Shown piece by piece: positions 37,193 to 41,887 of a stretch of DNA of 64,000 bases; position 1 is the stretch's first letter, and each line of letters starts with the position of its first letter. Origin of the DNA: Gemmatimonadota bacterium (GTDB lineage: Bacteria; Gemmatimonadota; Gemmatimonadetes; Gemmatimonadales; GWC2-71-9); the NCBI GenBank assembly GCA_016874005.1, contig VGVQ01000012.1, positions 1 to 64,000 of the forward strand, in the 5' to 3' direction. The notes below the pieces were generated by a model. That model was not told the DNA's origin and did not search any database. It saw only the letters and a list, made by a program, of their open reading frames with translations. Both the position numbers and the translations under genes were made by a program.

Positions 37193-38512
37193 GTGACGAC
37201 CACCGAATCGACCGGCCTGCTTCGGTCCATCGGCCGGTGGGCGTTGGCCGGTTTGGTTTTGAACGGGATCATCGGCAGCGGGGTGTACGGCTTGCCGACC
37301 CTCGTTGCCGCCAAGTTGGGGCCGCTCGCGTGGGTTGGGGTGCTGCTCGCCGGCCTCGCGATGGGGATCGTGGTGGCCTGTTTCGCGGAGGTGGCCTCGC
37401 GGTTCGTCGGAACCGGCGGGCCGTACCTGTACACCCGCACGGCGCTCGGGCCATACGTCGGGCTCCAGATCGGCTGGCTCCACTACCTCACCCGGGTCGC
37501 CTCCGCGGCGACCAACGCCAATCTCTTCGTGATCTACCTCGGCGAATTCGTCCCCCGGATCGACGGTGTCCTGCCCAAGACGCTGGCGATCCTCGGCCTG
37601 TTGGGCGGGCTGGCGGCGATCAACATCCGGGGGGTGCGGTACGGCGCGGGGTTCAATAGCGTGACGACCGTGGTCAAGATCGTCCCGCTGGTGGTGTTCG
37701 CCCTGGCGGGGCTTCTCGTGATCGGGTTTACCGGCCGTCCCGAGCCCGCCGCGGCCGGGCCGGTGCTGGGCCTCGGCTCGTGGGTCGAGGCGCTGCTGAT
37801 CCTGGTCTTCGCTTACGGCGGGTTCGAGTCGGGGGTCATCGCCCTGGGCGAGGCCAAGAACCCGGCCAAGGATGCCCCATTCGCGCTGTTCGTGGCCATG
37901 GGTAGCTGCATGCTGCTGTACACCGCGGTCCAGCTGGTGTCGAGTCTGGCCCTCGCCAACCCGGCCGACCACGCCCGGCCGGTCGCCGCGGCGGCCCGGG
38001 CGCTGGCGGGGCCCACCGGCGCCGTGGTGATGACGTTAGGCGCGTTGCTGTCGCTCTTCGGCTGGTTCGTCGGGGCGATGGTCAGCACCCCTCGGCTGAC
38101 CTACGCGATGGCGGAGCAGGGAGTGCTGCCGACGGCGTTCGGGCGCCTCCACGCCGAGTACCGGACCCCAGTGGTTTCCATCGCGGCCTTCGCGGTGTTC
38201 TCGGTCGTGCTGGCGCTTTCGGGCGGATTTCTGGCCAACCTCACCCTATCGGTCATCTCGCGGCTGGGCATCTACGGCTGCGTCTGCCTGTCGTTGATCG
38301 TGCTCCGGAACCGGGATGGCCGCGATCCCTCCCTCGCGCCGGCCCAGTTCCGGTTGCCGGGCGGGCCCCTCTTCGCGGTACTCGGCATCGGACTGACCGC
38401 GATGCTCGCCACCCGAATGACGGGCCGGGAGGCCGTGATCATGGTCATCGTCATCGGGCTCGCCACCCTCAACTGGTTTCTGGCTCGGCGAAAGCCGGCT
38501 GTGGTGGCGTGA
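37193..38512 (+). CDS. APC family amino acid permease
   Basis: 439-residue inner-membrane transporter with about 12 helices. GIIGSGVYGLPTLVAAKLG in helix 1 is the typical glycine-rich substrate-binding turn of the APC superfamily, and YGGFESGVIALGEAKNPAKD (helix 6 and following) is also characteristic. GTG 37193 directly follows the hydrolase stop. Probably takes up the amino acid released by that enzyme. Confidence 0.9.
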   Translation: MTTTESTGLLRSIGRWALAGLVLNGIIGSGVYGLPTLVAAKLGPLAWVGVLLAGLAMGIVVACFAEVASRFVGTGGPYLYTRTALGPYVGLQIGWLHYLTRVASAATNANLFVIYLGEFVPRIDGVLPKTLAILGLLGGLAAINIRGVRYGAGFNSVTTVVKIVPLVVFALAGLLVIGFTGRPEPAAAGPVLGLGSWVEALLILVFAYGGFESGVIALGEAKNPAKDAPFALFVAMGSCMLLYTAVQLVSSLALANPADHARPVAAAARALAGPTGAVVMTLGALLSLFGWFVGAMVSTPRLTYAMAEQGVLPTAFGRLHAEYRTPVVSIAAFAVFSVVLALSGGFLANLTLSVISRLGIYGCVCLSLIVLRNRDGRDPSLAPAQFRLPGGPLFAVLGIGLTAMLATRMTGREAVIMVIVIGLATLNWFLARRKPAVVA

Positions 38513-38871
38513 CCGAAGGGGCGCCACTCGCGGTCGGGGTGGTGACCATTCGGACCGGCGGGGTCGGCCTCGCCGAGGACGTCGACCTGGTTGACCGCCT
38601 CCTCGCCCACGGATGCCGAGGCGGCTATCATCCCGACTTGGTGATTCGCCACCGCCACGGGCGCCACCACCCCCCGGAGCAGGAGGCGCTCCGCCGGCAG
38701 TACGACATCGGACGGGGGGCCTACTTCGCCAAGTGTCTCGCCGATCCCCGACTGCGCTCGGCGTATCGGAAGGGCTGGCTCGACAAGGCACGGCGGGGGA
38801 GTTGGCGGGCGACCGTCCGAGAACTCCTCGGGGCGTGGCGATACTGGACCCGACCGAAAGCGACTCGATGA
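38509..38871 (+). CDS. Glycosyltransferase family 2 C-terminal fragment
   Basis: 120-residue protein that matches only the last part of GT2 enzymes: AEDVDLVDRLLAHG (the ED acidic motif after the acceptor site), YHPDLVIRHRHGR and RQYDIGRGAYFAKCL. The nucleotide-sugar-binding domain with its DXD is absent, so catalysis is unlikely. Both ends overlap neighbouring genes by 4 bases (GTGA with the permease, ATGA with the thioesterase), so reading is preserved within the operon. Best seen as a decayed or repurposed fragment. Confidence 0.6.
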   Translation: MTEGAPLAVGVVTIRTGGVGLAEDVDLVDRLLAHGCRGGYHPDLVIRHRHGRHHPPEQEALRRQYDIGRGAYFAKCLADPRLRSAYRKGWLDKARRGSWRATVRELLGAWRYWTRPKATR

Positions 38872-39356
38872 CCCCGCCCGCCTTTGCCCACCGCATCGTG
38901 ACTCGCGAGGAGGACATCGACGACCTCGGCCACGTCAATAACGTCAATTACCTCCGCTGGATGCTCGAGGCCGCCTCCGAACACTGGCGCTGGTATCGAG
39001 CCTCCGATCGGGATGGCGTCGGAACCGAGGTCGGTTGGGTCGTGATCCGACACGAATTGGACTACTTCCAGCCGGCGTTCCTCGGCGACACCATCGAGGT
39101 GGTCACCTGGGTGCCGACAGTCACCGCCTTGACCTGCGACCGGTACTACGAGGTCGTCCGGCTTCGCGATGGCGCCTTGCTGGCCCGGGGGGCTTCCACC
39201 TATTGCGTGGTCGACCGCGCCACCGGGAAGCCGCGCCGGATGGGAGAACAGCTCCGCCAACTGCTCGGCGCACCGGAGATCGTCCCCAGGACCCGAGCCG
39301 AGCGGCTCTTTCCGGAACGCCCTGCCGAGATCCGGCGGGCCATCCCGGTCAGGTGA
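38868..39356 (+). CDS. Acyl-CoA thioesterase, 4HBT hot-dog fold
   Basis: 162-residue cytoplasmic enzyme of the YbgC/FadM-type hot-dog family. The signature DDLGHVNNVNYLRWMLEA gives the catalytic Asp and the helix-capping GHVNN. Cleaves short-chain or aromatic acyl-CoA thioesters. ATG 38868 overlaps the GT2 fragment stop, and its own stop overlaps the GTG of the next large gene (GTGA). Confidence 0.87.
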   Translation: MTPPAFAHRIVTREEDIDDLGHVNNVNYLRWMLEAASEHWRWYRASDRDGVGTEVGWVVIRHELDYFQPAFLGDTIEVVTWVPTVTALTCDRYYEVVRLRDGALLARGASTYCVVDRATGKPRRMGEQLRQLLGAPEIVPRTRAERLFPERPAEIRRAIPVR

Positions 39357-41887
39357 GGAACTGGGCCGCAGGCTATGGCGTTCTCGGGCTGAGATTCCTC
39401 GGCCTTGGAGTTGGAATGGGGTGGCTCGGGCTGCTGGTTCCGCTGGCGCAGCTTGCCGGGGCGCAACCGCCTGCCGACAGCAGCATCGTCATCGCTCCCG
39501 GGGCTCGGTATCAGAAGAGCGGGCTGCATCGCTTCTTCCTCGGCGACACCCACCGCGACCTCTGGGCCACGCCGGTGCGGTTTCGGGTTCTCGATCTCGA
39601 CCGCTATGCGGGAGGGTTGGTGGCCACCGAGCGGGGCGGATCGAGGCAAAGCAAGTCGCTCCGACTCCAAGCTGCCGACGGCCGGATGTTCACCTTCCGC
39701 GCGCTCGACAAAGACCCAACCCAAACCTGGCCGGTCCCTCTCCGTAGCAGCCCGGCCCGGAAGTTCGCCGAGGACCAGATCAGTGCCCTCCTCCCGGCCG
39801 GTGCCCTGGCGGTCGCGGTGCTCGAGGAAGCCGCCGGGATTCTCCACAGCGGTCTCGAGTTGATGGTGTTGCCGGACCACTCACGGCTCGGGGCGTGGCG
39901 TGACGAGTTCGCCGGGCAACCGGGGATCTTGGAGCAGCGGCTCCGAGGCGAGAACGCGGCCGTGGAGGCGGCGACCGGCGCGCTCGAGGTCGTCACCAGT
40001 CAGGACCTGTTCCGTCGCCTCAAGGCGGACGGGCGCCAGGTGGTCGACCAGGAGCGGTTTCTGGCCGCCCGGTTGTTCGACCTCGTCGTCGGCGACTGGG
40101 ATCGCCACGCGGACCAATGGGGCTGGGCCCGTTTCGACGAGCCGGTCGGGTCGCGGTGGGTGCCCCTCCCGCGTGATCGGGACTGGGCGATGTCGGTTCT
40201 CGACGGGCCGCTGTATGGTTTGCTGCGGTGGTACCTGCCCAAGTACCAGTCGTTCGGCGACCGGTACGGCAGCATCTACGGCCTTACCCTCGCGGCCGAA
40301 GGGATCGATCGGCGACTCCTGGTTGGGCTCGATGCCGATCGCTGGGACCGGGTCACGGCCGACCTGACCTCTCGCCTGACGGACCAGGTGATCGACCGGG
40401 CGGTGGCGGCGCTTCCCCGCGAATTTCCCGCCGCCGGGCGAGCCGACCTCGCCGCCGCGCTCAAAGCCCGGCGGGACGCACTGCCGGCCGCGGCGCGGCG
40501 GCTCTACCGGCAGCTCGCGGGTCAGGTGGAACTTCGGGGTTCCGACGGGGCCGACTCGGTGGCGGTCGAGATCGAACCGTCGTCGGTGGTGGTCTCGGTC
40601 GCCGATTCCCGGGGCACGACCCGCTGGCGCCGCCGATTTCTCGCCCAGGAGACCGACGAGATTCGGCTCTATCTGTATCAGGGCCGCGATCGCCTGGTGG
40701 TCACCCCGGCGGCCGCCCGCTCGCCGATCCGGCTCCGGGTGATCGGCGACGACTCGAGCCTGGTCGAGGCGGCGAAAGCAGCATCAATAGCTAGTTATTC
40801 AAGCGACGGGTCGTTTCGGTCGCCGGTCGATCCCCAGGATCCGGTGCGGATTCACCGCGACTGGGGTACCCTCCGTGCGGTGGCCCCGTGGTTCGAGGCC
40901 CGGCCCGAAATCGGGACCCTGATCGGCGGCGGGCCGGTGTTATACCAATACGGCTTTCGGAAGGTGCCCTACGCCTCTCGGATCGCGCTCAGGGCCGCGT
41001 TCGCCACCGGGGCGCCAGGCCTCAACCTCGACGCCGACGCCGACTTCCGTTTCATCCGACCTGACCGGCGGCTCCGGATTCGAGCCTCGATGCTCCGGAC
41101 CGACGCGGTCCGGTACTTCGGGCTCGGCAACGAAACCACCCGCTCGGACGACGACGACTTCCACACCACCCGCCAACGGCTGATCTCGGTCGCACCCAGT
41201 CTCGAACTCGATCTCGGACCGACGGCCCGCCTCGAGCTGAGCCCATCACTTCGATCGAGCCGCACCGACCCTGACCCCACCTCCTTGCTGGCCAGGGAGC
41301 GTCCCTACGGCAGCGGCGATTTCACCGAGATTGCTTTCGAGGCGCGCGGCGTGGTCGATACCCGCAATCACCCGCGGTATCCGACCAGCGGAGTCCACCT
41401 CGAGGCGGCCGGCCGGGTGGCCCCGGCAGCGCTCGACCTCGACGAGGCCTATTACCGATTCGACGCGCGTGCCGCCGCGTTCATCACGGCGACGATGCCG
41501 GCCACCCCAACCCTCGCGCTCCGGGCCGGCGGCAGCCGAGTCTGGGGCCGGGTGCCGTTCTTCGGCGCGCCGTCAATTGGTGGGCGGGGTTCGGTCCGGG
41601 GGCTGAACAGCCAACGGTTTCTCGGTGATGCGGCCGCGTTCGCCAGCGCCGAATTGCGCCTGGACCTGGGGCAATTCACGGTGCTGGTCCCCGGGGACTG
41701 GGGCCTGTTCGGCCTCTCGGACGTCGGCCGAGTATTCGTCGACGGCCAGGCCTCGCGGCAGTGGCACTCGGCTGTCGGGGGCGGGCTCTGGTTCGCGTTC
41801 CTCGACCGGAAGAGCACCATGACGCTGAGCTACGCCTCCGCCAGCGAACGGGCTCGGTTCTACCTCCAGGCCGGCTTCCACTTCTGA
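39353..41887 (+). CDS. Kinase-like domain fused to outer-membrane beta-barrel
   Basis: 844-residue exported protein. GTG 39353 overlaps the thioesterase stop and leads into a signal peptide (to about residue 40, LAQLAGAQPP). The first half contains GDWDRHADQW (residues 247-256) and PRDRDWAM (Asp275, Asp277). This resembles the catalytic loop and metal-binding Asp of HipA/Fam20/PI-kinase-like folds, where a D..H..N-type loop is followed by a later Asp. The second half (about 500-844) has alternating strands, GGRGSVRGLNS and a terminal Phe (AGFHF), as in BamA/TamA/FhaC-type Omp85 barrels. The barrel call is firm; kinase activity is inferred. Confidence 0.75.
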   Translation: MRNWAAGYGVLGLRFLGLGVGMGWLGLLVPLAQLAGAQPPADSSIVIAPGARYQKSGLHRFFLGDTHRDLWATPVRFRVLDLDRYAGGLVATERGGSRQSKSLRLQAADGRMFTFRALDKDPTQTWPVPLRSSPARKFAEDQISALLPAGALAVAVLEEAAGILHSGLELMVLPDHSRLGAWRDEFAGQPGILEQRLRGENAAVEAATGALEVVTSQDLFRRLKADGRQVVDQERFLAARLFDLVVGDWDRHADQWGWARFDEPVGSRWVPLPRDRDWAMSVLDGPLYGLLRWYLPKYQSFGDRYGSIYGLTLAAEGIDRRLLVGLDADRWDRVTADLTSRLTDQVIDRAVAALPREFPAAGRADLAAALKARRDALPAAARRLYRQLAGQVELRGSDGADSVAVEIEPSSVVVSVADSRGTTRWRRRFLAQETDEIRLYLYQGRDRLVVTPAAARSPIRLRVIGDDSSLVEAAKAASIASYSSDGSFRSPVDPQDPVRIHRDWGTLRAVAPWFEARPEIGTLIGGGPVLYQYGFRKVPYASRIALRAAFATGAPGLNLDADADFRFIRPDRRLRIRASMLRTDAVRYFGLGNETTRSDDDDFHTTRQRLISVAPSLELDLGPTARLELSPSLRSSRTDPDPTSLLARERPYGSGDFTEIAFEARGVVDTRNHPRYPTSGVHLEAAGRVAPAALDLDEAYYRFDARAAAFITATMPATPTLALRAGGSRVWGRVPFFGAPSIGGRGSVRGLNSQRFLGDAAAFASAELRLDLGQFTVLVPGDWGLFGLSDVGRVFVDGQASRQWHSAVGGGLWFAFLDRKSTMTLSYASASERARFYLQAGFHF

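Follow-up and report, generated by a model that had tools for sequence, protein, structure and literature searches.

In PlpD, a patatin-like Omp85 protein (type Vd), the enzyme domain carried on a 16-strand Omp85 barrel has been shown to be periplasmic, and deletion of PlpD changes membrane lipids (PMC11116518). Kinase folds are represented by CtkA, a HipA-like kinase of Helicobacter pylori (3akj), by the CotH kinases (5jd9) and by the type II PI4-kinases (4hnd). Neither a 2014 survey of Omp85 proteins (PMC4104836) nor a paper on the Flavobacterium BAM (PMC12611786) mentions kinase or phosphoesterase domains, and in the open-access literature that we searched we met no account of a kinase-fold domain joined to an Omp85 barrel, an absence that counts only weakly towards novelty. 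The protein that we describe here combines these two parts, each of which belongs to a known superfamily.

An exported protein with a kinase-like fold and an Omp85 barrel

The gene lies in the window, by which we mean the whole stretch of 64,000 nucleotides that was analysed, taken from contig VGVQ01000012.1 of a Gemmatimonadota bacterium, and it occurs once in the 3.9 Mb genome. The open reading frame, its coordinates, its length of 844 residues, the motifs GDWDRHADQW (residues 247-256) and PRDRD (residues 273-277) and the C-terminal Phe, all of which a sequence-only reading had reported, were verified in the sequence. The features of the gene are as follows.

39353 to 41887, + strand: whole gene, 844 residues; GTG start, overlapped by the stop of the upstream gene (GTGA)
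39353 to 39463, + strand: candidate N-terminal export signal, residues 1-37, hydrophobic, ending AGA before Q (from the sequence and the low-confidence N-terminus of the model)
39470 to 40519, + strand: kinase-fold domain, residues 40-389 (AlphaFold2 model, Foldseek matches in the PDB)
39635 to 39649, + strand: Gly-rich turn, residues 95-99, GGGxQ in the family, a candidate nucleotide-binding loop (Gly95 and Gly96 invariant)
39698 to 39712, + strand: R116xxxK120, with a candidate phosphate-binding lysine (both residues in 86 of 86 relatives)
40091 to 40120, + strand: putative catalytic loop GDWDRHADQW, with Asp248, candidate base Asp250, His252 and Gln255 (conservation in relatives)
40175 to 40183, + strand: DRD, with Asp275 and Asp277 as candidate metal-binding pair (both in 86 of 86 relatives)
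40523 to 40798, + strand: all-beta linker domain, residues 391-482, not POTRA-like (helix-free by DSSP on the model)
40868 to 41884, + strand: 16-strand Omp85 barrel, residues 506-844, with terminal Phe (Pfam PF01103, strand count, Foldseek)

The upstream gene whose stop overlaps the GTG start is, by eye, thioesterase-like (window positions 38613 to 39356, + strand), and this arrangement of the two frames suggests translational coupling. An open reading frame at 38509 to 38871 (+ strand) resembles, also by eye, the C-terminal part of a glycosyltransferase only, and is possibly a gene remnant. A scan for defence systems gave no match for the 844-residue protein, and a scan of viral contigs returned no relatives of it.

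An AlphaFold2 model of the full protein (58 sequences; pLDDT 87.8, pTM 0.85) comprised, in order, the signal, a two-lobe domain, the all-beta linker and 16 barrel strands. Since Foldseek listed only barrel matches for the full protein, the domain was modelled alone (residues 40-400, 86 sequences), with a pLDDT of 93.8 and a pTM of 0.92. Against the PDB, the best 50 of 516 matches to this domain model were all kinase-fold proteins, and the first 14 of these were PI4KII, CtkA, HipA and CotH, with E-values of 2e-5 for PI4KIIalpha, 2e-5 for CtkA, 1e-4 for HipA and 2e-4 for CotH and a probability of 0.99-1.00 for each. The TM-scores were modest (0.3-0.5), so the relation to known kinase folds is distant. 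The sequence-only reading had likened the protein to HipA, Fam20 and PI-kinase folds and had proposed this comparison of folds; its idea of a kinase-like fold held up, with HipA and PI4KII among the leading matches, and no Fam20 entry was found among the best 50 of 516. As modelled, the domain has the kinase-like two-lobe fold of the protein kinase-like superfamily.

Sequence profiles pointed in the same direction. The top PDB match of a sequence profile was CtkA, aligned on the DRH..NW loop, at E-values of 0.043 and 0.022 that are suggestive only. Profile-profile comparison gave E-values of 1.5e-4 for CotH and 4.7e-3 for HipA, with 0.13 for an unrelated control, and the PRDRD segment aligned with the PYDYD motif of CotH. 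At the level of profiles, the CotH match shows distant kinship only: Pfam gave no CotH (PF08757), HipA (PF07804) or patatin match in the 844-residue protein, CotH and HipA were absent among the 25 families listed for 58 relatives, and no model covering the kinase-fold domain was found in Pfam or NCBIfam.

The sole Pfam match in the protein was to Omp85 (PF01103; 35.6 bits against a cut-off of 24), and NCBIfam also pointed to Omp85, below its own cut-off. Together with the 16 strands counted in the C-terminal barrel of the model, as is typical of the Omp85 superfamily, and with Foldseek, which grouped the barrel with TamA and BamA, this bears out the Omp85-like barrel with terminal Phe of the sequence-only reading. 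The likeness to TamA and BamA would also suit a factor for outer membrane protein assembly or secretion, whose N-terminal domain would stand in for POTRA domains and act like a chaperone. We regard this as very improbable: predicted secondary structure revealed no POTRA domain (residues 391-505 are helix-free in the model), copies of the kinase-fold domain without a barrel exist, and conservation is strongest at the kinase active-site positions, as described below.

The N-terminal domains of 16-strand Omp85 barrels are periplasmic, and because of this we place the kinase-fold domain in the periplasm, where by analogy it would lie near the inner leaflet. The sequence-only reading had put it on the outer membrane side; Omp85 topology and the PlpD precedent indicate that this should probably read periplasm. 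Freestanding copies of the domain have either a lipoprotein-like appearance or an N-terminal membrane anchor, which is consistent with export.

Conservation of the putative active site

Our first set of homologues was gathered with the pattern WDRHADQW, which 80 of its 81 rows carry, and the conservation of residues 249-256 in that set, being circular, was set aside. As these relatives had been selected by motif, sampling was repeated by profile across two phyla. The resulting alignment of 86 rows, 56 found by profile and the remainder by motif, contained Arg116, Lys120, Asp243, Asp248, Asp275 and Asp277 in every row, Asp250 in 83 and His252 in 84, while position 255 was Gln in 82 rows and Asn in 4. 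The four residues that the sequence-only reading had singled out (Asp250, His252, Asp275 and Asp277) are therefore conserved in 83, 84, 86 and 86 rows, respectively. When only the 19 relatives that the profile detected in the window's phylum are considered, all four, and Gln255, are invariant. Within the loop, Ala253 and Asp254 drift freely in the profile-gathered sets, whereas Asp250, His252 and Gln/Asn255 are kept. Judged by sequence position, the domain has the conserved Lys, catalytic Asp, Asn/Gln and metal-binding Asp expected of a kinase fold, and the Gly-rich turn sits between strands 89-95 and 102-107. Of 20 invariant positions, with those in 249-256 partly circular, 19 fell in the kinase domain, one in the linker and none in the barrel. 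The motif D.DRH..[QN] is not due to chance: when the protein was shuffled 20,000 times, only 5 of the resulting sequences contained it.

We also found copies in which the active site has decayed. Two barrel-fused, diverged paralogues (locus L154, 4636-7233, + strand; locus L155, 4452-7112, + strand) have lost the loop motif and have no alignable Lys segment, while the remaining C-lobe is retained; at L155 the eroded copy stands in tandem with an intact one. Three freestanding paralogues (L141, 6610-7704, - strand; L150, 8670-9764, + strand; L151, 5826-6923, - strand) carry Ser in place of Asp250, and two of them also Arg in place of His252. They adjoin copies with intact motifs, at least one has a lipobox, and from their sequences they are likely to be pseudo-kinase partners. 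Matches at L144 and L145 were weaker, the latter stopping short of the loop.

These copies bear on the possibility that the 844-residue protein is itself a pseudo-kinase, its fold serving the barrel for binding or as a scaffold, with catalysis absent. Inactive copies are evidently retained at these loci, and the compartment has no known ATP, but members of the main family differ little or not at all in the putative catalytic residues. That these residues are lost in L154 and L155 while the C-lobe persists argues for catalysis in the other members. Residue conservation thus appears to disfavour the pseudo-kinase option that the sequence-only reading had raised, even though degenerate paralogues exist, and we consider it unlikely for this protein.

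Distribution and association with a phosphatase

Profile searches detected the kinase-fold domain in both phyla sampled: in 43 of 150 genomes from the window's phylum, and in 73 of 198 from a second, Bacteroidota-type phylum, where the sample was centred on a Flavobacterium genome. Carriers include cultured Flavobacterium and Pedobacter species.

An N-terminal metallophosphoesterase was fused to 66 of the 87 domains in the first, motif-found set and to 25 of the 29 domains at the best loci from the second phylum, and to none of the 19 domains from the window's phylum. The phosphatase is fused in most Bacteroidota; in many Gemmatimonadota it is a separate gene, often just upstream of the kinase gene, and at L153 kinase, phosphatase and barrel are three consecutive genes. 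Among the 150 genomes, the kinase was present in 27 of the 28 that bear the phosphatase (hypergeometric p 1.5e-17, uncorrected for shared ancestry), and in 20 the two genes are linked within 5 kb. The partner (PF00149) is of the purple acid phosphatase type (PDB match at E 4e-10; 1war, 2bq8), and most of its rows retain GDN, GNHD and GHEH. An intact partner near the window gene was not supported: the sole homologue in the genome is some 51 kb distant, with a match over the N-terminal half only, and for this reason we class the window gene as a solo form.

Other neighbours recur at related loci. One is a small SdiA-regulated/phytase-like beta-propeller protein (for example L029, 8925-9791, - strand, and L034, 5057-5902, + strand). 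Another, seen at L029 (3538-4776, - strand) and at many flavobacterial loci, has an HD domain and a Pycsar-effector transmembrane domain (PycTM) and adjoins a protein of about 780 residues with a weak GAF match.

Discussion

The 844-residue protein has a kinase-like fold with conserved residues and an Omp85 barrel, and its family is linked to a phosphatase. We think it fairly probable that it is a periplasmic transferase on an Omp85 barrel, paired with a phosphatase in most relatives and acting on an envelope substrate. The exported protein would be seated in the outer membrane by its C-terminal barrel, with the kinase-fold domain hanging in the periplasm, where it may modify an envelope substrate by transfer of a phosphoryl or nucleotidyl group. 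The donor is predicted to be held by Lys120 and the Gly-rich turn, with Asp250 as the base and with Gln/Asn255, Asp275 and Asp277 as metal ligands. The substrate would most plausibly be an outer membrane lipid or glycolipid, a guess suggested by where the domain would lie, by its resemblance in fold to PI4K and by the precedent of PlpD. In most relatives the purple-acid-type phosphatase would then take the group off again, so that the two enzymes would form either a reversible switch or a phosphate-trimming cycle. Counting for this reading are the confident domain model with its kinase-fold matches, the profile matches, the conserved catalytic set in a sample that was not motif-selected, the loss of the loop motif in L154 and L155, the fused or adjacent phosphatase, the anchored or lipoprotein-like freestanding copies and the PlpD precedent; against it we weighed the modest TM-scores, the lack of a phosphatase adjoining the window gene and the presumed scarcity of periplasmic ATP.

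The same location forces the question of the donor. Kinase-fold enzymes with other chemistry include SelO and SidJ, and LpxT uses undecaprenyl pyrophosphate as donor. The domain could likewise perform AMP transfer or glutamylation, or use a donor such as polyprenyl pyrophosphate or a phospholipid, as opposed to ATP-dependent phosphorylation. We hold such chemistry to be possible, if on the improbable side; it overlaps with the transferase proposed above, for which no donor is specified. Nothing specific speaks against it, and the phosphatase partner points to phosphate chemistry while leaving the donor unfixed. Extending the transferase proposal, we tentatively suggest, as an idea that may well prove wrong, that an undescribed family of outer-membrane-anchored periplasmic kinases, each with its dedicated phosphatase, reversibly phosphorylates an outer membrane lipid or glycan with a donor other than cytosolic ATP. 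If this is true, the outer membrane would itself be a site of phosphorylation signalling or of lipid remodelling. The domain occurs in about a third of the sampled genomes, in two large phyla and in cultured species; envelope phosphate-modifying enzymes outside the cytoplasm, and their donor, could thus be addressed by gene deletion and lipid analysis.

Among known systems, the type II PI4-kinases are the best single match in fold, which is that of a lipid kinase, and differ in being eukaryotic and cytosolic, with 13% identity. CtkA has the DRH..[NQ]W loop and the fold in common with the domain, but lacks a barrel and is about 10% identical. The CotH kinases match in fold, and their GNWD and PYDYD align with GDWD and PRDRD; they form a separate family, to which the protein has no Pfam match, and also lack a barrel. 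Purple or tartrate-resistant acid phosphatases resemble the partner protein rather than the kinase domain, and none stands beside the window gene. With PlpD and the other patatin-like Omp85 proteins the protein shares an N-terminal enzyme domain on a 16-strand Omp85 barrel, whereas PlpD combines that barrel with a patatin and a POTRA domain and the 844-residue protein combines it with a kinase fold and an all-beta linker.
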